Positions 3,479 through 33,240 of a stretch of 40,718 nt of DNA are shown here, one piece after another. The stretch is taken from the IMG/VR virus record IMGVR_UViG_3300031331_000004, positions 1 through 40,718 of that record; one strand, 5' to 3'. This stretch comes from a virus. The first letter of the stretch is position 1. Every line of letters starts with the position of its first letter. A model generated the notes under the pieces. The model searched no databases. It was not told the DNA's origin and was given only the letters and a program-made list of their open reading frames with translations. The translations under genes and the position numbers were made by a program.

Positions 3479-6400
3479 ATCGAAATCTTTAGATTATTCG
3501 GCACAATTCAAGTAAATAAGGCCAAGGCGATCGCTGACCTGAAGGCCGTCTCTGCGGCGGGTCAGACGCAAGGTAATAAGCTGACGAGCATTTTCAAGGC
3601 AGTTGGAAAGGCCGCCATTGCTGGGTTCGCTATCGTTGCCGCTGCTGGCGCGGGGATCTTCGTTGCTGCGATCAAAAAGGCTGCTGATTACGAACTCGCT
3701 ATGGCGAAGGTCCGGGCGATAACCGGGGCCTCGGCAGATGAGTTTGCCGACTTAACCAGAAAAGCCAAAGAGCTCGGTCTTGAAACCGCACAGACCATGA
3801 CTGATATCGCGGCGGGCATGGAAGCATTCGGGCGGGCTGGGTTTAGTGCAACAGAGATTATCAGCGCGATGGATGGTGCGGTAGCCCTTGCTGAGTCACA
3901 GGTGATGGACCTTGGTGAGGCCGTAGGTATCACAGCAAACATCCTGCGAGGGATGAGGCTTGAGGCGTCGGAGTCGGAGCGTGTCGTCAATGCGCTTGCA
4001 GCAGCGGCCTCATCGTCTAATACAACGGTTAGCTCTCTTGCAGGCTCAATGAAGTATTTCGCGCCGATAATGGCCGACCTGAACATTCCACTCGAAGAAG
4101 GGTTGGCACTTATCGGCAAGCTGGGCGACGCAGGCCTGACAGGGACAATGGCTACCCGTGCTCTTGCAACTGCTTTCACGCGACTTGCCGATCCAACAAC
4201 AGAGATGCAAGAGGTGATGGAAGAACTCAATATTGAGTTCTTTGATGCTCGAGGGAACTTTGTCGGTATAACTCCGATGATCGCTCTGCTTGAGGATCGC
4301 TTCGCAGGCTTAACTCAAGAGCAACGACAGGCAGCCATTTCTACTCTGTTTGGAGCGGAGGCTCTAAAGCACTTCTCAATCCTGTTGGGTGTTGGGGCCG
4401 AAGACATTACCACGTATACAGAAAAGATAACGGGAACAACAAAAGCATTTGACCAACAAGCCGAGATGCTGGACACGCTTTCAGGTCAGTGGCAGATTCT
4501 CAAAGGGTCGGTCGAGCTGTTGCTGGTAACAATCGGAATAGACATGATGCCGATTCTCAAGACTTTTCTAAAGGACCGCATTATCCCCATAGTCAACAAT
4601 ATGACTTCTTGGATCGAGAAGATGGGGGGATTGAAGGGTATCTTTGCCGCGTTGAAGGGCAAGGTCAAGGATTGGGCAAGAGAGCACGAGCCGCTGATCT
4701 CAGCGTTCGTCAGGGCCAAGGACGCGGTGGTGAAGCTATGGAATACGGTGAAGGATGCTTTCCGCGCGATCGGCAAGGCGCTCGGACTGGCGGGTGAGGA
4801 TGCACAAAGCCTTGGAACTACTTTTGTAAACGGCCTGACAGTCGCGGTGAATATCGTAGCGGATTTGCTCGATGTGGTCTCTCGTTTTATTAATTTCCTG
4901 TTGAGGCATAAGGCGTCAACAGTGGCGGCCATATCTGCTATTACCGTGGTGTTCCTTGCTCTCAAGGCGGTACAGATGGCAAAGTGGTTTGCGGCCACTA
5001 TTAGCGGGATGACTCTTTTGAGCGCAATCCTATCACCAGCGGGTTTGTTGGTCATGGGATTAGGTCTCATTACAATTGGTTTCATCGAAGCGCGTAAAGC
5101 CATAACAAGCTATTCAGATGCTCAGAGCGAGGCCGTGGAAGCATCCAAGGATCTGGAGGGGGCATTCTCCGATTTAACGGACAGCGCGGAAGACGTGGAG
5201 AAAGCAGGGGTTATCCTGCAAGGGGGAATCAATCTTGTTGGGTCCAGGTTGGCGGAACTGGTTCAGACCGGAGGGTTGTCGATCATCACACTTCGTGACA
5301 TCACTGACAAGATGGGTGATCTCCGCGAGGAGGTAATGAAGGTTCCTGTCAGCGAAATGGCTCAGGCTTGGGCGGAAGGCGTTAGCGCGATCCTTGGCGA
5401 ATACGAGGAGATTCTGCCTGGGATCGGGTCTATTCTGGATGACCTTGTGGTGAAGTCAGAGGAGAAGGGAGAGGAAGCGGGGGAAGCGCTAACAGAAGGC
5501 GTCGTAAGAACTGTTGAGGAAGGCATACCTGACATAGAGGGAGCAGGGGAAGACACGGGCGAAGCGTATACAGAGGGAGTGGCTACCGGAGTCATGAACG
5601 GATCGGCGCTCATTCTCAAGGCCGAGGAAACGCTTCAAACGGTTTGGGATGCTTTACGTAAAGGCCACCATAAAGATGCGATAGAGGAAGAGAGGACATT
5701 CTGGGATGACTTCGTTGACGTTGTGAAAGACAGCGGAGCCGAGGTTGGAAACGTAATGGCCGATATGTGGGATAGCCTCAAGTCCCTGGCGAAGAGTGCC
5801 TTGGGCGACACGTTGAATGGTATTGTCGATCACTTCCGCGACCAGCGGCGACTAGCGGAGGAACATGCGGACCGGATGCTCGATATAGAGGAAGACTATA
5901 ACCAGGACGCAGCGGATCTTCAGTATACCCGCCAGGACGACTCTAAAGACGCAGAGCTATCCTACCAACGGAGAGTAGAGGATATCGAGAGAAGACACCG
6001 AAGAGAGTTGCAAGGCATAACTGGTGAAGATACAGAGGAACGAGCTCGAATCGAGACCCGCTACCGTGAAGACATGGAAGATGCAACAACGAACTATGCC
6101 CGTCGCAGGGAGGACATTGAGGAAGATTATTCGGACGCAGTTATCGCGCAAGAGAGGCGTCGTGAACAAGCATTAGCAGATGAAAGACAGGAATACAAGG
6201 ACACGCAGAAATCCCTATGGGGGGTACTTGGGGATATGCTGCATGATTTACTTACCGCGTTGCGCGAAGAACTATTTGTAAAGGCGGCGTCTCATGCCGT
6301 GGAAGCGCTTGCGTGGTCTTTCATCCCTCCGTTGTTTTTCCTGAATCCACAGGCGATCGGGCATGCAGCAGCGGCAGCGGCGTTTGCTGCTGGCGGTGCT

Positions 6401-10476: not shown

Positions 10477-13266
10477 GTGGCATCTGTAGTGATCTATAAT
10501 ACTAGCCGAGAACCAATTGCTGATCTCCATCTAGCATTTGATATCGGCTATGAACAACGGATCAACGGTCTCCACCGTGCTTGGTTTAGTCTTCCTCTAG
10601 ACGATCCTCACATCGCAGAATGCACAGGAATGAATTACGCAGAGATCTGGGACGGTGATGAGCGGGTAGACCTGTTCAGGATCGTAAGGAAGTACAAGCG
10701 TCGCACAACAAAAGAAACCTATTACCGCTTCGAGTGCGAACATGCCCTGGTAACGCTGATGGACAACCGGTTCCAGGCGACTACCTACTCAGGGCCAGGA
10801 ACAACGACCTCGATCGGTGACGTGCTCGATGAACAGGATACGGCCAACTGGCAACTTGGGACGTGCGACTTTGATCGGCAGTTTTTGTACAAGTGGAAGC
10901 CAGGCACATCTCTTCTCGAAGCATTGATGTCGATTCCGGCACGGTTCCAATGCGCTTATCAGTTGACATGGGATACGTCCTCTTATCCGTGGACGCTCAA
11001 CCTAATTGAGCCGCCTGCGACAGTCACGGCCTATCTTGACTATTCCCGCAACCTGAAGACCATCGACATAGACGAAGACTTTCGTGGACTTTACACACGA
11101 CTTTATCCCTATGGTGCGAAAGCGGGGGCGGACCAGCTTGACATCACAGGTATTGAACCAGACGGCCACAACTACATCGAGAACAACGTTGGCACTTACG
11201 GATTGATCGTAGGCCCACGCTGGAGCGATCAGAGATATACCATCGCACAGAACCTCTACGATGCAGCGGTTGACAAGTTAGCTGAGGCGTCGGTGCCCAA
11301 GGTAACGTATACGATGGGTGCGGCGGACCTCTCCCGCCTCACCGGAGTAAGTACGGACCAATTCGTGCTCGGGGCATTGCTCTCTGTCAATGATACGGAT
11401 ATGGGAATCACGATCGAAGAGCGGATCGTTTCCGTCTCTAAGCCGGATCTCGACGGGAAGCCAGGAGATGTGACGATCCAAACATCCAATAAGTCAGAGG
11501 AGTTCGACCTGCGGGACGTAGTACGGGTGAACGACCTGAGTGCGTTAGAGATGGTGGACATTCCAGGTGGGGTGGTGGGAGCGTTAGCAGCCTCACCCTC
11601 AGTGGCGGGCCTCTATGCCTCTACCGATTACTTGGGGTTCTCAGATGGAACTGACTGGCGTGCTTATTTCGACATCGCTGGACGGGTCAGGCTCATTGGT
11701 GATGCAGACCACTACCTTACGTTTGATATCAATGCGTCACCACCACTAACGATCAAATCAGACGGTGAGTGGCTAGGTACCGCATTGATCTCGAATCTAA
11801 TCGCTGGAAATCTAACCGTGGGTATGAATCTAGGTACCGGCGGCTATATCAAGAGTGACAACTATGAGGCAGGAGTAAGTGGCTGGCAGATCAACAACAG
11901 CGGAAGTGCGGAGTTCCAGAATGCAACTATACGAGGGTCATTGAATGCGTCTGACTTGGACGCAGGGACCATTGATTTCGCTACCATCTCACGTTCGGGT
12001 ATGAGCATTATAGCTGATGAAATAGCCAACGGAGCGGTAACCGACGCTAAGATCGATACGGTGTCAGTCTCAAAGTTGCTTGCTGGTGACATCAACGTGG
12101 CGTGGAACCTCGTAGCTGGAGGATCGGTCAAGAGTGACAACTATGAGGCAGGAGTAAGTGGCTGGCAGATCAACAACAGCGGAAGTGCGGAGTTCCAGAA
12201 TGCAACTATACGAGGGTCATTGAATGCGTCTGACCTTGACGCAGGGACCATTGATTTTGCTACGATCTCCCGTTCGGGTATGAGCATTATAGCTGATGAG
12301 ATTGCTAATGGAGCTGTGACGGACGCTAAGATCGATACTGTAACGGCTGCTAAAATTGTAGCGGCAAACCTTGCTGCAATCAGTGCCGACCTAGGAGCTA
12401 TTACGGCAGGGACTATAACCCTCAACGCTGCTGGACACATTAAGGGCGGGCAAACTGCCTATGATAGCGGGGTAGGATATTGGATAGGGTACGTTGGTGG
12501 ATTGTATAAGTTTTCCATTGGAGATAGCAACGGCTCTAATCTCACATTCGATGGTGACAATGTACGTATCGAGGGTGCCGATACTTATATTGCAGGTGCC
12601 GTGAACTTCGCGGGGATCGAGGTCTCCGATGTGACTGGGTGGAGATATGTCGCTGACCCCACGTATATTGATGGGCAGAGTATCTATGCACATACGATAA
12701 CAGGAACGGAGATCAGTGCTTCTGCGATAATCACGGCTGGGACAGGAAACAACGTGGCGGTTCTGAATGGGACTGATGCAACTTGGCGGATCTATGCAGG
12801 ACATGCAACGCCAGCAAGTGCGCCGTTTAGGGTAAACCAAACAGGGCAATGCTTTGCGACGGATTTCCAGACCTTAACGGATACAGATGGTACTCTCGTT
12901 ATATCTGGTGGTGTTTTTCAGGGTGCTATAGGACATATAGCAGAGGCTGGATGGGTCTTTGAGGGCAATGCGGAAACTTCTTGGACTCTCTTGGGGGTCG
13001 CGGGTGATATAGGGGCTCACCTTGCTCTTGTTACTTTGTATGTCGTCAATGATAACGTGGGTGTAAACAATTTTGCCTTTGCTCCCGTGGGCAATGATGG
13101 CTATTGGCCTGCAGACTGGAGTGATACATACGGTACTAATGTTATACGCCTAGCAGCTTCGAAGTTTGGATGGGTGACCGTTAGGACTAATAGCTCTGGG
13201 CAAATATACTGGAAGGCCACCAGCGCAATAAACGTCCATATTGCCCTAGATGCCTGGTTTTATTGA
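10477..13266 (+). CDS. Tail-tip / tail-associated structural protein (Tal-like, minor structural protein)
   Basis: A 929-residue protein. The first about 370 residues match the hub-like N-terminal domain of phage minor structural or tail-endopeptidase proteins: HLAFDIGYEQRINGLHRAWF, AEIWDGDERVDLFRIVR, FECEHALVTLMDN, then FRGLYTRLYPYGAK. The rest is fibre-like and includes two near-identical 71-residue blocks (about residues 459-529 and 552-622) with the motif SGWQINNSGSAEFQNATIRG, common in central tail fibres. The C-terminus is beta-rich and probably a globular tip. I see no clear peptidoglycan hydrolase motif. GTG start with AAGGAG at 10466-10471. Confidence 0.75.
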   Translation: MASVVIYNTSREPIADLHLAFDIGYEQRINGLHRAWFSLPLDDPHIAECTGMNYAEIWDGDERVDLFRIVRKYKRRTTKETYYRFECEHALVTLMDNRFQATTYSGPGTTTSIGDVLDEQDTANWQLGTCDFDRQFLYKWKPGTSLLEALMSIPARFQCAYQLTWDTSSYPWTLNLIEPPATVTAYLDYSRNLKTIDIDEDFRGLYTRLYPYGAKAGADQLDITGIEPDGHNYIENNVGTYGLIVGPRWSDQRYTIAQNLYDAAVDKLAEASVPKVTYTMGAADLSRLTGVSTDQFVLGALLSVNDTDMGITIEERIVSVSKPDLDGKPGDVTIQTSNKSEEFDLRDVVRVNDLSALEMVDIPGGVVGALAASPSVAGLYASTDYLGFSDGTDWRAYFDIAGRVRLIGDADHYLTFDINASPPLTIKSDGEWLGTALISNLIAGNLTVGMNLGTGGYIKSDNYEAGVSGWQINNSGSAEFQNATIRGSLNASDLDAGTIDFATISRSGMSIIADEIANGAVTDAKIDTVSVSKLLAGDINVAWNLVAGGSVKSDNYEAGVSGWQINNSGSAEFQNATIRGSLNASDLDAGTIDFATISRSGMSIIADEIANGAVTDAKIDTVTAAKIVAANLAAISADLGAITAGTITLNAAGHIKGGQTAYDSGVGYWIGYVGGLYKFSIGDSNGSNLTFDGDNVRIEGADTYIAGAVNFAGIEVSDVTGWRYVADPTYIDGQSIYAHTITGTEISASAIITAGTGNNVAVLNGTDATWRIYAGHATPASAPFRVNQTGQCFATDFQTLTDTDGTLVISGGVFQGAIGHIAEAGWVFEGNAETSWTLLGVAGDIGAHLALVTLYVVNDNVGVNNFAFAPVGNDGYWPADWSDTYGTNVIRLAASKFGWVTVRTNSSGQIYWKATSAINVHIALDAWFY
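11851..12063 (+). repeat. Internal duplication in the tail-tip gene, copy 1
   Basis: The 213-base unit encodes the same 71 residues as the copy at 12130-12342, 279 bases downstream. The first 105 bases are identical, and the rest differs only at synonymous positions. Confidence 0.95.
12130..12342 (+). repeat. Internal duplication in the tail-tip gene, copy 2
   Basis: Second copy of the 71-codon block. After base 12234 the two copies differ at third positions (for example TTG/CTT, TTC/TTT, ACC/ACG) while the protein stays the same. Confidence 0.95.
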
Positions 13267-21566: not shown

Positions 21567-21577
21567 TCTAAATTGCC

Positions 21578-21605
21578 TTGACAATGGCGGATAAATGACT
21601 ACAAT
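21578..21605 (+). promoter_or_regulatory. Promoter P3 before the replication genes
   Basis: A perfect -35 TTGACA, a 16-base spacer and TACAAT at 21600-21605. Transcription would start near 21612, at the base of the structured leader described next. Confidence 0.75.
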
Positions 21606-21608
21606 AAT

Positions 21609-21682
21609 AGTTGCGGGTGAGGCGTGCCGGAGCCTTGCCCTGAAAGGGTGCTCCGTTATTCGGGGCTGCTTCGCCCGCAACT
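21609..21682 (+). ncRNA. Structured 5' leader RNA A before the replication initiator
   Basis: A long basal helix pairs 21609-21620 with 21671-21682 (one G-U). Inside it 628-633 pairs with 650-655 (numbered from 21000) and continues with 637-640/646-649 around a TGAAA loop. The structure is at the mRNA 5' end and ends 10 bases before AGGAG of the initiator gene, so it may stabilise the message or control initiator translation. No poly-T tract follows, so it is not a terminator. I cannot match it to a known riboswitch. Confidence 0.5.
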
Positions 21683-21705
21683 CTACCGAATAGGAGTAGT
21701 ATAAA

Positions 21706-26578: not shown

Positions 26579-26768
26579 AGAGAGAGCAAAGCGAGCATTA
26601 GATACGAAAAGGCCACATCCGACCGACAAACATAGCGTCATGGTGGTGCCCAGTGATCTTGAGGGTATGGTTGATCCGGCAGGTATGCCTCGACGCACCA
26701 GGCATGACATGGTTGCGCGAGTATCTGAAGAAATCTATGGCGCTCAGCGCGAGGCAGAGGCTTCATGA
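26568..26768 (+). CDS. Small hypothetical protein
   Basis: A 66-residue protein with a basic N-terminal helix (AEERAKRALDTKRPHPT) and the segment VVPSDLEGMVDPAGMPRRTR, then a helix. It overlaps both neighbours and has AGGAG upstream. No family recognised. Confidence 0.5.
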   Translation: MNAEERAKRALDTKRPHPTDKHSVMVVPSDLEGMVDPAGMPRRTRHDMVARVSEEIYGAQREAEAS

Positions 26769-27007
26769 ACAACATTTTAGATCATTTAGCAAAAGCCCTC
26801 GAAGAGAATTGTTCCTCACCTTTCCTGCCGAAGGGGTTTGTTCAAATTCAATTTGCCCATTTCACTGACGGTGAACGAGAATTGAATATCCAAATTGGCG
26901 ATAGGGATTTCACCTTGAACAAGGATTTAGATTGCACTGGCAGCGGAAGCAGAGTGGGAGTTGGGAAAAACTGGAATATTCAGCAATCCCCAGCTGAAAG
27001 CATATAA
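26765..27007 (+). CDS. Small hypothetical protein
   Basis: An 80-residue protein coupled by ATGA to the previous gene. It has an N-terminal helix (ILDHLAKALEENC) followed by strands (FVQIQFAHFTDGERELNIQI, GDRDFTLNKDLDC). It is the last gene before structured RNA B. No family recognised. Confidence 0.5.
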   Translation: MNNILDHLAKALEENCSSPFLPKGFVQIQFAHFTDGERELNIQIGDRDFTLNKDLDCTGSGSRVGVGKNWNIQQSPAESI

Positions 27008-27011
27008 AATA

Positions 27012-27101
27012 AGGCGGTTGCAGCGTAGCGTGCTACGTTGGGGGGATGAATCGGTTTCGTGCCGTATTAGGCAGCCGGATGGGGAATCCGGCCAGCCGCC
27101 T
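27012..27101 (+). ncRNA. Structured RNA B (four-way, tRNA-like outline)
   Basis: The base helix pairs 27012-27020 with 27093-27101 (one G-U). Inside are an 8-bp hairpin (27021-27028/27033-27040, loop CGTG), a small middle hairpin near 27052-27073 and a 7-bp hairpin (27074-27080/27086-27092) that abuts the base helix, as a T-arm does in tRNA. It lacks T-loop and D-loop consensus and CCA, so it is not called a tRNA. Its ends match RNA C. It fills the gap between two small genes. Confidence 0.55.
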
Positions 27102-27115
27102 AAATAGAGAAGTGC

Positions 27116-28068: not shown

Positions 28069-28568
28069 GCAAAGAGAAACTGAAACATGCAGGGGGCAGG
28101 CCTCGCAAGTTCGAGACGGTAGAAGAGATGCACACGGCAATCGGAGAATACTTTGAGAAGTGCGATGCACGGATGGTCAAGGTTGTAGTAAACCAGGGCA
28201 ACAAGAAGGTGCTGGCAAACGTACCTAAGCCTGAGCCGTACACCGTTCAAGGGCTTACCGTCTTCCTCGATCTTACCAGGGAAGGCTTGCGTGAATATGA
28301 GAAGCGTGAGGAGTTTTCTGACACTATAAAGAAAGCGAAGGCAGTGATCGAAGCAGATAAGGTATTACACATGCTCGATGGTGACGGGTACGGGGCAGGA
28401 TATATCTTCGATCTTAAGAACAACTTTGGCTGGACAGATAGGCAAACAATCGAACACACTGGCAAAGACGGAGGCCCTATTGAGCACGAAGACCTCTCCG
28501 GTATGACGAACGAACAGTTGCGGGAGCGGTTGAGGATCATCCGTGGTGAGAAGGGAGAGAAGGATTAG
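28065..28568 (+). CDS. Terminase small subunit
   Basis: A 167-residue protein that recognises the packaging start on phage DNA. The layout is GGRPRKFETVEEMHTAIGEY at the N-terminus, PYTVQGLTVFLDLTREGLRE (a helix-turn-helix), FSDTIKKAKAVIEAD, then FDLKNNFGWTDRQ, the hallmark of this terminase small subunit family. A C-terminal helix region with the LRIIRGE end may contact the large subunit. The large subunit gene lies one gene downstream, separated by an unrelated 190-residue protein. Confidence 0.85.
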   Translation: MSKEKLKHAGGRPRKFETVEEMHTAIGEYFEKCDARMVKVVVNQGNKKVLANVPKPEPYTVQGLTVFLDLTREGLREYEKREEFSDTIKKAKAVIEADKVLHMLDGDGYGAGYIFDLKNNFGWTDRQTIEHTGKDGGPIEHEDLSGMTNEQLRERLRIIRGEKGEKD

Positions 28569-28580
28569 GAGGAGGGAGAG

Positions 28581-29153
28581 ATGCACTTGATATGTGTACT
28601 GGGTAGTTCTGGCGAGAGCTGTGAGTATTGGGTTGGAGGAAGATGTGAGCGTGGGGATATCCAAGCCAGAACCGAAGGCGCTATGAGAATATGTAGTGAT
28701 TACGTTTGTAGGAGAGGGTCTATGTGCCGCTCCGTGGAAATACCCAAGCCCAAAGAGTCAACGTATTATGAGCTTGAATCAAAGTGGATGTTAGACCAGG
28801 TGACAGCAGGAACTATACTACACTGGCGATATGTTAGTTACTACAACGGCGCTCGTGGGCCTTGGTATAGCGTGAAGGCAAAGGCGGTCGAGGGAGGAGA
28901 GGCACACAAGGCTCTTTTGACTCGAAAGGAGAAGACGCCAGAGTTCCGGGTCGTAGAGGCCGCTCAGGAAGATGCTGTAAGAAAAGCGGGGGAAATCCTA
29001 GAATATGTAAAGGAGCTAAACTATCACCCAGCGGAGTTAGCAACAGATGCCGCGCGTGAGTTACTCAGACAATTGTTGAGATTGCAAAAGGAGACCCACT
29101 ATCTTGCCAGCAGGGATTACGGTAGTCCACGGAGCCGAAACCCCATTTTATAG
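28581..29153 (+). CDS. Hypothetical protein between the terminase genes
   Basis: A 190-residue protein with GGAGGGAGAG upstream. The N-terminal 60 residues are Cys-rich (CVLGSSGESCEYWVGGRCE, CSDYVCRRGSMCR), suggesting metal binding. The middle carries the small domain also found in the 21318 product (YYELES, YYNGARGPW, GGEAHKALL). The C-terminus is helical. Insertion of an accessory gene between terminase subunits is uncommon. Role unknown. Confidence 0.6.
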   Translation: MHLICVLGSSGESCEYWVGGRCERGDIQARTEGAMRICSDYVCRRGSMCRSVEIPKPKESTYYELESKWMLDQVTAGTILHWRYVSYYNGARGPWYSVKAKAVEGGEAHKALLTRKEKTPEFRVVEAAQEDAVRKAGEILEYVKELNYHPAELATDAARELLRQLLRLQKETHYLASRDYGSPRSRNPIL

Positions 29154-29177
29154 CCTAGAGAAGGATAGTCTGGAAAA

Positions 29178-30746
29178 GTGGAAACAGCGACGATAGAACA
29201 GACAACCCTACAGAATGAGGAGCGCCGCGTTCTAAGCGTTCTAGCCAAGCGCAGTCTGTCCAGCTTCTGCGAGTATGCCAGTAACGGGGCATGGAAGCAC
29301 GCGGCACACTTGGACTACCTTTGCCGGAAGATCGAAGAGGTTGAACAGTGGATCAACGAGGAGCATGATGAACCCAAGCTACTAATGGTGATCATGCCTC
29401 CCAGACACGGCAAGAGCGAAGTTGTTTCGAGGAATACCCCTGCATGGTTCTTAGGACGTAACCCAGACAAAGAAATCATCCTCGCTTCCTATGGCGCGGA
29501 GCTCGCCACAGATATGAGCCGCGACGCAAGGCGGATCTTTAGAGATAACTGCTCTGAACTATTCGGCTTGGAGATGTCCGAGGAGTCTGCTGCTGTTGGG
29601 CGCTGGCATATCAAGGGGCATAAGGGAAGGATGCAAGCAACAGGGGCCGGTGGCGCTATTACTGGCCGTGGAGCAGACCTCGCAATCATAGATGATCCGG
29701 TCAAGAACATGGAAGAGGGGGAGAGTCCCGTTTACCAGCGCAAGCTCGCTGATTGGTTCAGGACGACACTCCTAACTCGCTTGGTTCCTGGCGGTGCTGT
29801 GATACTTGTGATGACCCGCTGGCACATGCAGGACCTTGGTGGCCGCCTATTAAAAGCGGCAAAGGCAACCGGCGTGGAATGGGAAGTTATCAAGTTCCCT
29901 GCAATCGCGCAAGAGGACGATGTTCTCGGGCGGAAGAAAGGTGATCCCCTGTGGCCGTGGCGGTTCAACAAGAAGACACTGGCGAAGATCAGAGCGGCGA
30001 TCGGCGGGCGGTTCTGGAATGCGCTCTACCAAGGAGATCCAGAAGGTGATGTAGAGGGAGCCTTATGGAGACGGGAGACGATGATAGACCCTTATCGGGT
30101 GGCTATCGCGCCAGAGCTCGAGGAGATTGCCCTCGGTATTGACCCGTCTGGTGGTAGCGCAGAGTCGAACGATGAAGTAGGAATGATCTTAGGATCCCGC
30201 GGCGTGGATGGTAGGGGATACGTGCTGGCGGATATATCTGGACGTTATACGGCGAGCCCAAACGCCTGGGCAAAGGAAGCGATTCTCACGTGCATCGAAT
30301 GGAAGGCAAATCGGATTGTTGCTGAAAAGAACTTTGGCGGTGATATGGTATTAGCCGTGATCCTGGGGACGAAAGTAACAGTACGAGAGGAGTGTCCTAA
30401 ATGTCATGGCGGTGACGAAAAGGAAGAGTGCGAAATATGTGGCGGCGCTGGGGAAGTGGACGTGGAGCATAGTGGTGGGGAGTTCATGTCGGCGGAGGAT
30501 CTGGTGAATGCCTCACAAGCCAAACATATCAGGGCAGAGCCTATCGCTAACCTATGCTCTCAAGGAGAGATTAGCCACGTGGGAGAACTATCGGAGCTCG
30601 AGCATGAGCAATGTACGTGGATAGCCCAGGGTCCGAAACGTTCACGGTGGTCTCCGAACCGGATGGATGCTCTCGTGTGGGTAATGACAAAGTTGATGGT
30701 CGGTAGCCACTTTGTTGGCGTTACGAGCTTGGAATGGCCGGAATAG
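29178..30746 (+). CDS. Terminase large subunit with a zinc-ribbon insert
   Basis: A 522-residue packaging motor and nuclease. Walker A is in MVIMPPRHGKSEVVSRN (about residue 75) and Walker B in GRGADLAIIDDPVKN. The nuclease domain begins with IALGIDPSGGSAESNDEVG and continues with IVAEKNFGGDMV, and the end shows SPNRMDALVWVMTKL. Between VTVREE and NASQAKHIRAEP, where relatives are continuous, lies an extra about 40-residue block with CPKCHGG and CEICGGAGEV, a DnaJ-like zinc ribbon. GTG is the only start after an in-frame stop, with AAGGA 12 bases upstream. Confidence 0.92.
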   Translation: METATIEQTTLQNEERRVLSVLAKRSLSSFCEYASNGAWKHAAHLDYLCRKIEEVEQWINEEHDEPKLLMVIMPPRHGKSEVVSRNTPAWFLGRNPDKEIILASYGAELATDMSRDARRIFRDNCSELFGLEMSEESAAVGRWHIKGHKGRMQATGAGGAITGRGADLAIIDDPVKNMEEGESPVYQRKLADWFRTTLLTRLVPGGAVILVMTRWHMQDLGGRLLKAAKATGVEWEVIKFPAIAQEDDVLGRKKGDPLWPWRFNKKTLAKIRAAIGGRFWNALYQGDPEGDVEGALWRRETMIDPYRVAIAPELEEIALGIDPSGGSAESNDEVGMILGSRGVDGRGYVLADISGRYTASPNAWAKEAILTCIEWKANRIVAEKNFGGDMVLAVILGTKVTVREECPKCHGGDEKEECEICGGAGEVDVEHSGGEFMSAEDLVNASQAKHIRAEPIANLCSQGEISHVGELSELEHEQCTWIAQGPKRSRWSPNRMDALVWVMTKLMVGSHFVGVTSLEWPE

Positions 30747-30758
30747 AGGAGGTGAGAG

Positions 30759-30794
30759 ATGCAGATTGTCGGAGATCCTGCGCTATATCCTTAG
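30759..30794 (+). CDS. Possible 11-residue leader peptide
   Basis: ATG after a perfect GAGGAGGTGAG encodes MQIVGDPALYP and stops at TAG 30792-30794. It lies between the terminase gene and RNA C. The ribosome site is too strong for chance alone, so a leader or coupling role is possible. It may also be the remnant of a lost gene. Confidence 0.35.
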   Translation: MQIVGDPALYP

Positions 30795-30824
30795 GAAGAT
30801 TAACAAGGAATAAGTAAAACTACG

Positions 30825-30951
30825 GGCGGCTGCGGTGTCGAGCCCAAGCCCACAAGGCTATGGCCCTATAACTAGGGCGCGGACAGGCCGTAAGCGAAGG
30901 TCTTTTGGCGGGGCAAAACGTGTCCCGTCTCAGGCAGTAGGCCCAGCCGCC
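30825..30951 (+). ncRNA. Structured RNA C (large multi-branch, same family as RNA B)
   Basis: The base helix pairs 30825-30832 with 30944-30951 (8 bp, GGCGGCTG/CAGCCGCC). Visible hairpins inside are 847-850/856-859, 863-867/874-878 (GCCCT/AGGGC), 885-889/899-903 and an overlapping alternative 903-907/914-918 (TTTTG/CAAAA), the last two enclosed by 881-884/922-925 (numbered from 30000). The first 14 and last about 30 bases match RNA B closely. It sits after the terminase gene and ends exactly at the -35 of the capsid promoter. No known class recognised. Confidence 0.55.
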
Positions 30952-30980
30952 TTGACTTGATGGGGGGGATATGGTATAGT
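30952..30980 (+). promoter_or_regulatory. Promoter P4 of the portal-capsid operon
   Basis: TTGACT, 17 bases, TATAGT, with TGG before the -10 (extended -10). Transcription would start near 30987, about 90 bases before the portal start, giving a leader with two hairpins. Confidence 0.8.
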
Positions 30981-31006
30981 GAGCTAAGAGTGAGATAGCG
31001 CATAGT

Positions 31007-31066
31007 AACGGCTAAGGGCCGTTTGACTTGGCATCTCTCGGGAAACTGGGAGATGTCTCTGTTTTT
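31007..31066 (+). terminator. Leader with a terminator-like hairpin before the portal gene (possible attenuator)
   Basis: A first hairpin pairs AACGGC (31007-31012) with GCCGTT (31018-31023). A second, 10-bp stem (31030-31039/31048-31057, two G-U) is followed by TCTGTTTTT at 31058-31066. It lies between promoter P4 and the portal start, so transcription of the head genes may be conditional on antitermination. It could also be a simple processing structure. Confidence 0.5.
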
Positions 31067-31077
31067 GGGGGTGGTGA

Positions 31078-33240
31078 ATGGGATTAGGGAGCACAGTTGC
31101 CAACCTTGTTATGCAATGGGCGGCAAAGCGCAGCAAGTGGGATACATTCACGCCTCGCTTAGGTAATCCGTGGATGGCTGGGCAGGCTATCTTCCCTGAA
31201 TGGTCAACCGAGAAAGCGGTAAAAGAAGGCTATAAAGCTAGCTATATTTACTATACCGTAGCATCTGATATAGCAGACTGTATACGCTCCGTGCCGTGGG
31301 TGGTCAAGCGCAAGACAAAGACTGGCTCGGACCTTGTTGATAGTCACCCGCTCATGGAGATGCTACGAAGTCCGAACTCTGAAACCACCTGGGGGGCACT
31401 TAGTGAAGCGTGGGATCTGTTCAAGTCTATTGATGGGGACGCCTATGGGCATTTCGTACAGATCGCAGATGAGATGAAGATTTGGCTCCTACGTAACGAC
31501 CGCGTGAGAATAGTTCCTGATAAACGCGGACACATTGAGTCCTATAAATATACTCTAGGAGGAGAGTCTGAGCATTTCCCGCCCGAGGAGATCCTACACT
31601 TTAAGTTCTTCGACCCTAGCTCTGACTACTACGGGCTGGCTCCTCTACAGGCTGGAGCACCGATCATTGACACTCTAAATGCGAGCATTAAGTGGAATAG
31701 GGTAGCGATAGGTAGGCGCGCTATCAAAGATATGATCCTCGCTCCTGAGAAAGGCGTGAATATGAGTGGAACGCAGTATGAAGATTGGATTAAACATATA
31801 AACAAGCAAATCCACGGCCCTGAGAATGCCCACGGGCTGCTCATCAATTCGTTTGGTGTACAAATGGCGGAAATGTCACGCACTCCCATTGAGATGGATT
31901 TTATAAAGTCTGCGGGGTTCTACGAGGCGGCGGCGTGCAAGATCCTCCATGTGCATCCCGAGGCAATCGGAGCGCTAGGGGCGACGTTTGAAAATAAGGA
32001 ATGGGCTATCCGCGATAAGTGGCAAGGCCCGGTTGAATCAAGGTTGTCTGAGATGCGCGCGGTATTTAACCACAAGTTCCGACCTCTGTTTGGCACAGCT
32101 GATCCTAAGCTAGCAGCACCAGGTGAATTGTTCATGGACTACGACCTAACGAATACACCAGGGGCAAACGCAGCACAGAAAGAAGGGCTTGATCGAGCAG
32201 TAAAGGCATGGAAGTGTGGAGTGCCGTGGGATGTAGCTGATGAGAAGTTTGGTGTCGGTATCGGGCCTGTTCCTGGTGGTGATGTGGGTTACCTTCCAGT
32301 GAATGTTCTTCCAGCGGGGACGACCTTGCCTGCTGCTACTGCAAGATCCGAAGATGGATCAATCCGGTTTCTGTTCCCTGAAGGCCGGTCAAGCCGGTCG
32401 TTCAACTTGGAAACCAAGGAACAGTTTGCAGCGCACTGGCGGGCAGTTGACCGTCGTAAGCAGGGATGGGAGCGCGGCGTTGCGCCAAAGGTCGCTCAGG
32501 AATTCAGACTTGAACGTGAAGCAGTAGTAAAGGCGATCAAGGCGGGGCATGTCGATGTGGATTATGTGATAGACGCACGAGCTCCCTCATGGTCGAAATT
32601 GATCACCGCTGTCATGAGAGCCGTCATCGAAGACTTTGGCGGGCAAGTGGCAGATGATCTCAATGGTAGGGCCACTGAGGTAGGCCCCAGAGCGGGCCTC
32701 TCAGAAGATTTGGAGGCTCGACAAGGCTACGAATTTGATCCGTGGAATGATCTGATTAAAAAGTGGGTCACTACTAAGACAGCGGAGGACGTTGTAGAGA
32801 TTGGCATAACGACCAAGAAGGCGATTCGCAAGGTAGTCCTTGCCAGCCTCAAAGCGGGCGAATCATCGGTGAAGATCGCCAAACAGATTGAGGGAGTCTA
32901 TCGGCACTGGGAGAAGGTTGAAGGCCTAATAGATCCAACGACAAAAAAGCCGGTCGTTGCACGAGCGATGATGATTGCACGAACCGAGGTGCACACGGCG
33001 ACTGGATTCGGGATGCACGAGTCGGCGCGACAGTCGGGCGTGGCGAAAAAGAAGGCGTGGCTGTCTGCGATGGACCCACCGAGGGCGCGAGAGATGCACA
33101 TGGAGATAAGCGGGATCTGGATTCCGTTCGATGAGCCGTATGTAATGGCTGATGGAGCGACAATGCAGCATCCAGGTGACGGACCGGCGGACCATGTTAT
33201 AGGCTGCCGTTGCACAGAAATGTATAAAAATTCATCATGA
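31078..33240 (+). CDS. Portal protein fused to a MuF-type head morphogenesis domain
   Basis: A 720-residue fusion. Residues about 1-430 are an HK97-type portal (SYIYYTVASDIADCIRSVPW, HPLMEMLRSPNSETTW, LLRNDRVRIVPD, ILHFKFFDPSSDYYG, AAACKILHVHPEAIG). After a linker, residues about 575-720 are a SPP1 gp7/MuF domain with MMIARTEVHTATGFG, KKKAWLSAMD, then ADHVIGCRCTEM. The portal forms the DNA channel. MuF proteins are packaged minor head proteins. Both are usually separate genes, so the fusion would put about 12 MuF domains in each head. GGTGG precedes the ATG. Confidence 0.85.
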   Translation: MGLGSTVANLVMQWAAKRSKWDTFTPRLGNPWMAGQAIFPEWSTEKAVKEGYKASYIYYTVASDIADCIRSVPWVVKRKTKTGSDLVDSHPLMEMLRSPNSETTWGALSEAWDLFKSIDGDAYGHFVQIADEMKIWLLRNDRVRIVPDKRGHIESYKYTLGGESEHFPPEEILHFKFFDPSSDYYGLAPLQAGAPIIDTLNASIKWNRVAIGRRAIKDMILAPEKGVNMSGTQYEDWIKHINKQIHGPENAHGLLINSFGVQMAEMSRTPIEMDFIKSAGFYEAAACKILHVHPEAIGALGATFENKEWAIRDKWQGPVESRLSEMRAVFNHKFRPLFGTADPKLAAPGELFMDYDLTNTPGANAAQKEGLDRAVKAWKCGVPWDVADEKFGVGIGPVPGGDVGYLPVNVLPAGTTLPAATARSEDGSIRFLFPEGRSSRSFNLETKEQFAAHWRAVDRRKQGWERGVAPKVAQEFRLEREAVVKAIKAGHVDVDYVIDARAPSWSKLITAVMRAVIEDFGGQVADDLNGRATEVGPRAGLSEDLEARQGYEFDPWNDLIKKWVTTKTAEDVVEIGITTKKAIRKVVLASLKAGESSVKIAKQIEGVYRHWEKVEGLIDPTTKKPVVARAMMIARTEVHTATGFGMHESARQSGVAKKKAWLSAMDPPRAREMHMEISGIWIPFDEPYVMADGATMQHPGDGPADHVIGCRCTEMYKNSS

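Follow-up and report, generated by a model that had tools for sequence, protein, structure and literature searches.

The closest described counterparts of the element examined here, which we call RNA C, are phage RNAs and folded elements of several kinds. The packaging RNA (pRNA) of phi29 is a phage RNA near a packaging gene, and RNA C has a similar location. YrlA, which accompanies Ro60/Rsr (RF02553), is about 110–130 nt long with paired ends, and a YrlA shares one contig, L064, with a copy of RNA C. Integron gene cassettes join an open reading frame (ORF) to an attC site, a layout resembled here by an ORF followed by a folded element of the 90–130-bp class at an insertion boundary (RNA B). 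Uncharacterised structured phage ncRNAs resemble RNA C in their compact folds between co-directional genes and their patchy distribution.

RNA C nevertheless departs from each of these. Rfam scans of the window, RNA C, RNA B and L064 returned no family that matches RNA C, which was found in only three records. A pRNA is indispensable for packaging and would be kept in close relatives; RNA C has no Rfam match at E ≤ 10 and is missing from the whole, possibly incomplete, record of a near-identical phage (G001), and we rejected this identity. The YrlA model does not match RNA C, and the YrlA of L064 is a separate gene beside Ro60. The RYYYAAC/GTTRRRY cores and the G^TT junction of integron cassettes are missing here.

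Position and predicted fold of RNA C

The window, meaning the whole stretch of DNA analysed, is a 40,718-base virus record whose first 127 bases are identical to its last 127, compatible with a genome that is circular or terminally redundant. The first-pass annotation had placed RNA C between the terminase gene and the capsid promoter, and its coordinates are right: the core follows the terminase stop (30746) and precedes a promoter-like site (30952), with the portal start at 31078 (Table 1). The 11-codon ORF listed there is possibly a gene remnant.

Table 1 Features of the window discussed in the text
Feature	Position	Strand	Basis or remark
346-bp insertion: 80-aa ORF (26765-27007) plus RNA B	26757..27102	+	Empty site in G001 and G003
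RNA B, shorter structured element with RNA C-like ends GGCGGTTG...CAGCCGCCT	27012..27101	+	Folding, alignment
Terminase large subunit gene	29178..30746	+	PHROG 38, E 8e-93
Stretch missing from L008/G001	30757..30945	+	189 bp replaced by 238 bp with a small ORF
11-codon ORF MQIVGDPALYP with Shine-Dalgarno-like AGGAGGTGAG	30759..30794	+	Sequence
RNA C conserved unit (core 30825-30951)	30817..30952	+	Folding; L064 and L007 copies
Sigma-70-type promoter-like site TTGACT-N17-TATAGT before the portal/capsid operon	30952..30980	+	Retained in L008, which lacks RNA C
Terminator-like hairpin with T-rich tail, portal leader	31030..31067	+	Same in L008, similar in L010
Portal/head morphogenesis fusion gene	31078..33240	+	PHROG 2662, E 1.6e-72

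The nested hairpins noted earlier are borne out by the calculations. In the predicted structure a closing stem, GGCGGCTG/CAGCCGCC, encloses about four hairpins, and the 127 bases reach a minimum free energy (MFE) of −61.2 kcal/mol (z −2.90; 2 of 200 shuffles equally good). Taking 128 bases and 1,000 shuffles gives z −2.93, with 8 equally good. Comparison between copies sets the limits of the conserved unit, so that its pairing ends on the first base of the −35 box. RNA C has the lowest MFE among 678 sampled 127-base plus-strand stretches of the window phage, in part because of its high G+C (65% versus 50.5% for the genome), and z falls below −2.9 in 3.4% of those stretches; hence, the energy alone is not decisive. 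Compared with shuffles, the plus strand (z −2.9) folds better than the minus strand (z −0.9).

A scan of 28500–31200 detected no promoter-like site directly upstream of RNA C and no T-run 3' of it, and the G+C hairpin followed by a T-run that marks an intrinsic terminator was absent from RNA C; the only plus-strand terminator-like site in that interval is at 31030, past the promoter. ARAGORN finds 0 tRNA or tmRNA genes in the window. Elsewhere in the window, a 929-aa ORF (10477-13266) holds two direct 274-base copies, 85% alike, at 11789-12341.

A twister ribozyme had been raised because of a stretch in one loop. This stretch, CCCAAGCCC, is present, but at E ≤ 10 the twister covariance models find nothing in 30700–31100, nor does any ribozyme model of Rfam in the window copy, L064 or RNA B. 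Self-cleavage by this or another known ribozyme class is thus without support and, in our view, highly improbable.

Relatives with and without RNA C

Relatives were gathered by scanning viral contigs for terminase and portal, which gave near-identical and distant phages. In pattern scans of viral contigs, RNA C occurs beyond the window only in L007/L041 and L064. The L007 copy (record G003) differs by one base, at 30824. L008 (record G001) matches the window at 98.8% identity across the 3.65 kb upstream of the replaced stretch and at 98.6% downstream of it, and no copy was found anywhere in the 35.5-kb G001 record, which spans the site but may be an incomplete genome. The absence of RNA C from so similar a phage makes it an accessory element. 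L008 retains GCCGCC directly 5' of the −35 box, the final bases of the RNA C closing stem; loss in L008 and gain in the window are both possible.

Wider searches added no homologs. A genome-collection scan produced 74 matches, none judged to be a homolog (close-spaced matches were inspected, with local BLAST and, for six, a model search), and matches on Sinorhizobium plasmids (E=0.6) are chance hits of the same kind. When a model built from RNA C alone was run on 299 and 400 genomes from two phyla, its two weak matches, at an E of about 0.005 per genome, were no more than chance would produce.

The copy in L064 is 90% identical to window positions 30817-30952 across 138 alignment columns, and the flanks do not match. 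It fills the gap from a stop codon to the ribosome-binding site of the next gene, and its neighbour genes are unrelated to those in the window. The two phages are loosely related, since a protein of L064 shares 54% identity with one from the window across 80 residues. By hand alignment the two RNA C sequences are separated by 11 change events, including five indels of 1–2 bases, none a multiple of three, and these frame-breaking indels show that RNA C is not protein-coding. Eight of the 11 events hit positions left unpaired in the window fold, a class that makes up only a third of the element (binomial P 0.009, in a test that uses a structure taken from one of the two compared sequences), and the 34 bases at the 3' end are identical in both.

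Base-pair probabilities favour the closed form in the window and L064 sequences each, and the hand-alignment consensus favours a different overall topology, with all 38 pairs kept in both copies; three internal hairpins are common to the two topologies. Taken alone, the L064 copy reaches a z of only −1.15 and has an A-C mismatch in its closing stem, and none of the changes among the three closely similar sequences (two diverged copies) is a two-sided compensatory change. The first-pass annotation had regarded the lack of a distinct RNA and of conserved structure in relatives as evidence against its reading. The L064 copy answers that point, with copies too few for compensatory evidence.

One could read the same pattern as functionless GC-rich passenger DNA exchanged with neighbouring genes, as the absence from a close relative and the modest shuffled-energy z-scores would allow. 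Identity of 90% despite unrelated flanks and changes mostly in loops make this reading improbable. Judged by sequence comparison, RNA C is a real, conserved, non-coding, accessory element, and most likely a structured RNA that is transcribed with its neighbours and passes between phages.

The capsid promoter and the Ro60 locus of L064

The promoter-like site next to RNA C has a TG before its −10, which lies at 30975, and a terminator-like hairpin follows within about 80 bases (30952-31067), an arrangement reminiscent of lambda-type late antitermination. Both the site and the leader hairpin are kept in L008 without RNA C, so the arrangement that would control the capsid operon exists independently of it; a similar pair precedes the portal of L010, which is about 52% identical to the window portal. 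There is no promoter 3' of the L064 copy. From its place at the end of the packaging transcript, RNA C had been proposed to act as a free small RNA, a 3'-end element or an antiterminator target. The first two remain viable, but a position before the capsid promoter is not essential, because the L064 copy has no such promoter and L008 has the promoter without RNA C; the same comparison makes it less likely that RNA C is an antiterminator or insulator dedicated to this operon boundary. On these arrangements, RNA C is not tied to the capsid promoter.

Directly after a second promoter-like site in the window, TTGACA-N17-TACAAT, comes a long hairpin leader with the closing sequence AGTTGCGGGTG... 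(21567-21705). Its counterpart in G001 has a similar closing stem and promoter with a different interior, and the element is possibly a 5' leader or small RNA.

L064 also carries, at 3604-5489, a phage Ro60/Rsr gene with an adjoining YrlA Y RNA. The protein is a Ro60 homolog (TROVE 9e-47, Ro60 vWA 1e-65, solved Ro60 structures at E down to 1e-139), encoded 1.25 kb upstream of the RNA C copy; Ro60 and YrlA together lie 1.3–3.2 kb from RNA C. Ro60 is encoded by many annotated phages, most of them phages of actinobacteria. RNA C could accordingly be imagined as a ribonucleoprotein (RNP) partner of a protein such as Ro60, a second Ro60-bound RNA in L064 and a client of the host's Ro60 for the window phage. 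However, L064 has its own YrlA directly upstream of Ro60 (5367-5489; E 4.7e-9, below the Rfam gathering score), RNA C is unlike YrlA, and no TROVE gene occurs in the window, G001 or G003. Recovery of that YrlA indicates that the YrlA search works, and model RF02553 gave no match to RNA C at E ≤ 10 in the window and L064 regions. We rejected RNA C as the Y RNA of L064, given the separate YrlA beside Ro60, and we hold a Ro60 partnership to be distinctly unlikely. The closeness of Ro60 to RNA C is proximity, not evidence of binding, and serves as a lead only.

RNA B and models for RNA C

RNA B sits at the 3' boundary of the 346-bp insertion, the remainder of which is filled by the ORF. The insertion splits a reading frame that is intact in two near-identical phages, and one of these, G003, has the empty site although it shares 99.8% identity with the window over 11 kb, which dates the insertion as recent. 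A relative of the inserted gene, 45% identical, sits between the terminase and portal genes of a different phage, where no matching RNA accompanies it. RNA B folds with z −3.6 on the plus strand and −2.7 on the minus strand. Pairwise scores between RNA B and RNA C give P values of 0.014 and below 1/3000, and the RNA C-alone model finds no significant match to RNA B (E 3.7); kinship of the two thus rests on the shared ends and the pairwise scores, and is suggestive only.

The joint ending of RNA B and the gene insertion, with the ORF filling the rest, also fits a DNA-level recombination or mobile element, either an attC-like site or the palindromic end of a non-autonomous transposon, that moves small genes. 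The sizes (90 and about 130 bp), similar ends and variable middle resemble attC sites, and both integrons and attC sites are on record in phage genomes (PMC9892861). Against this, neither RNA B nor RNA C is framed by a RYYYAAC...GTTRRRY core pair, the 346-bp insertion lacks a G^TT junction, folding is best on the transcript strand and no target duplication is evident, and we give the idea little credence. It is also unlikely that RNA C and RNA B represent a new family of mobile phage gene-plus-RNA cassettes whose RNA functions in an RNP or in host takeover, perhaps with the Ro60 system handling it.

RNA C, its L064 copy and RNA B all lie 0–30 nt 3' of an ORF, on the coding strand and without a T-run. 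This would suit a purely cis-acting element of the 3'-UTR or intercistronic kind, in which clustered hairpins halt 3'-5' exonucleases and prolong the life of the upstream message, with no free RNA. The large conserved non-hairpin part, including the 34 identical 3' bases, exceeds what a simple hairpin needs, and we consider a purely cis-acting role rather unlikely.

Our preferred reading, to which we assign a probability of roughly 45%, is that RNA C is a non-coding RNA module, accessory and exchanged horizontally, transcribed with its operon and folded on the plus strand, most likely giving a stable RNA of about 130 nt. Its position, its conserved unit, its non-coding pattern of change and its presence or absence in near-identical phages are observed, and we infer its co-transcription, processing, stability and function. 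Having no recognisable promoter of its own, RNA C would be transcribed within the operon around it; the transcript strand would fold into the closed multi-hairpin structure and, being compact and stable, would most likely outlast the decay of the surrounding mRNA. It could then act as a free RNA or as a barrier guarding the 3' end of the upstream message.

The non-coding RNAs of environmental phages are largely unannotated. RNA C offers a clean natural experiment, with near-identical phages that have or lack it and a copy relocated beside a Ro60/YrlA locus, which makes it a practical candidate for learning what such RNAs do.
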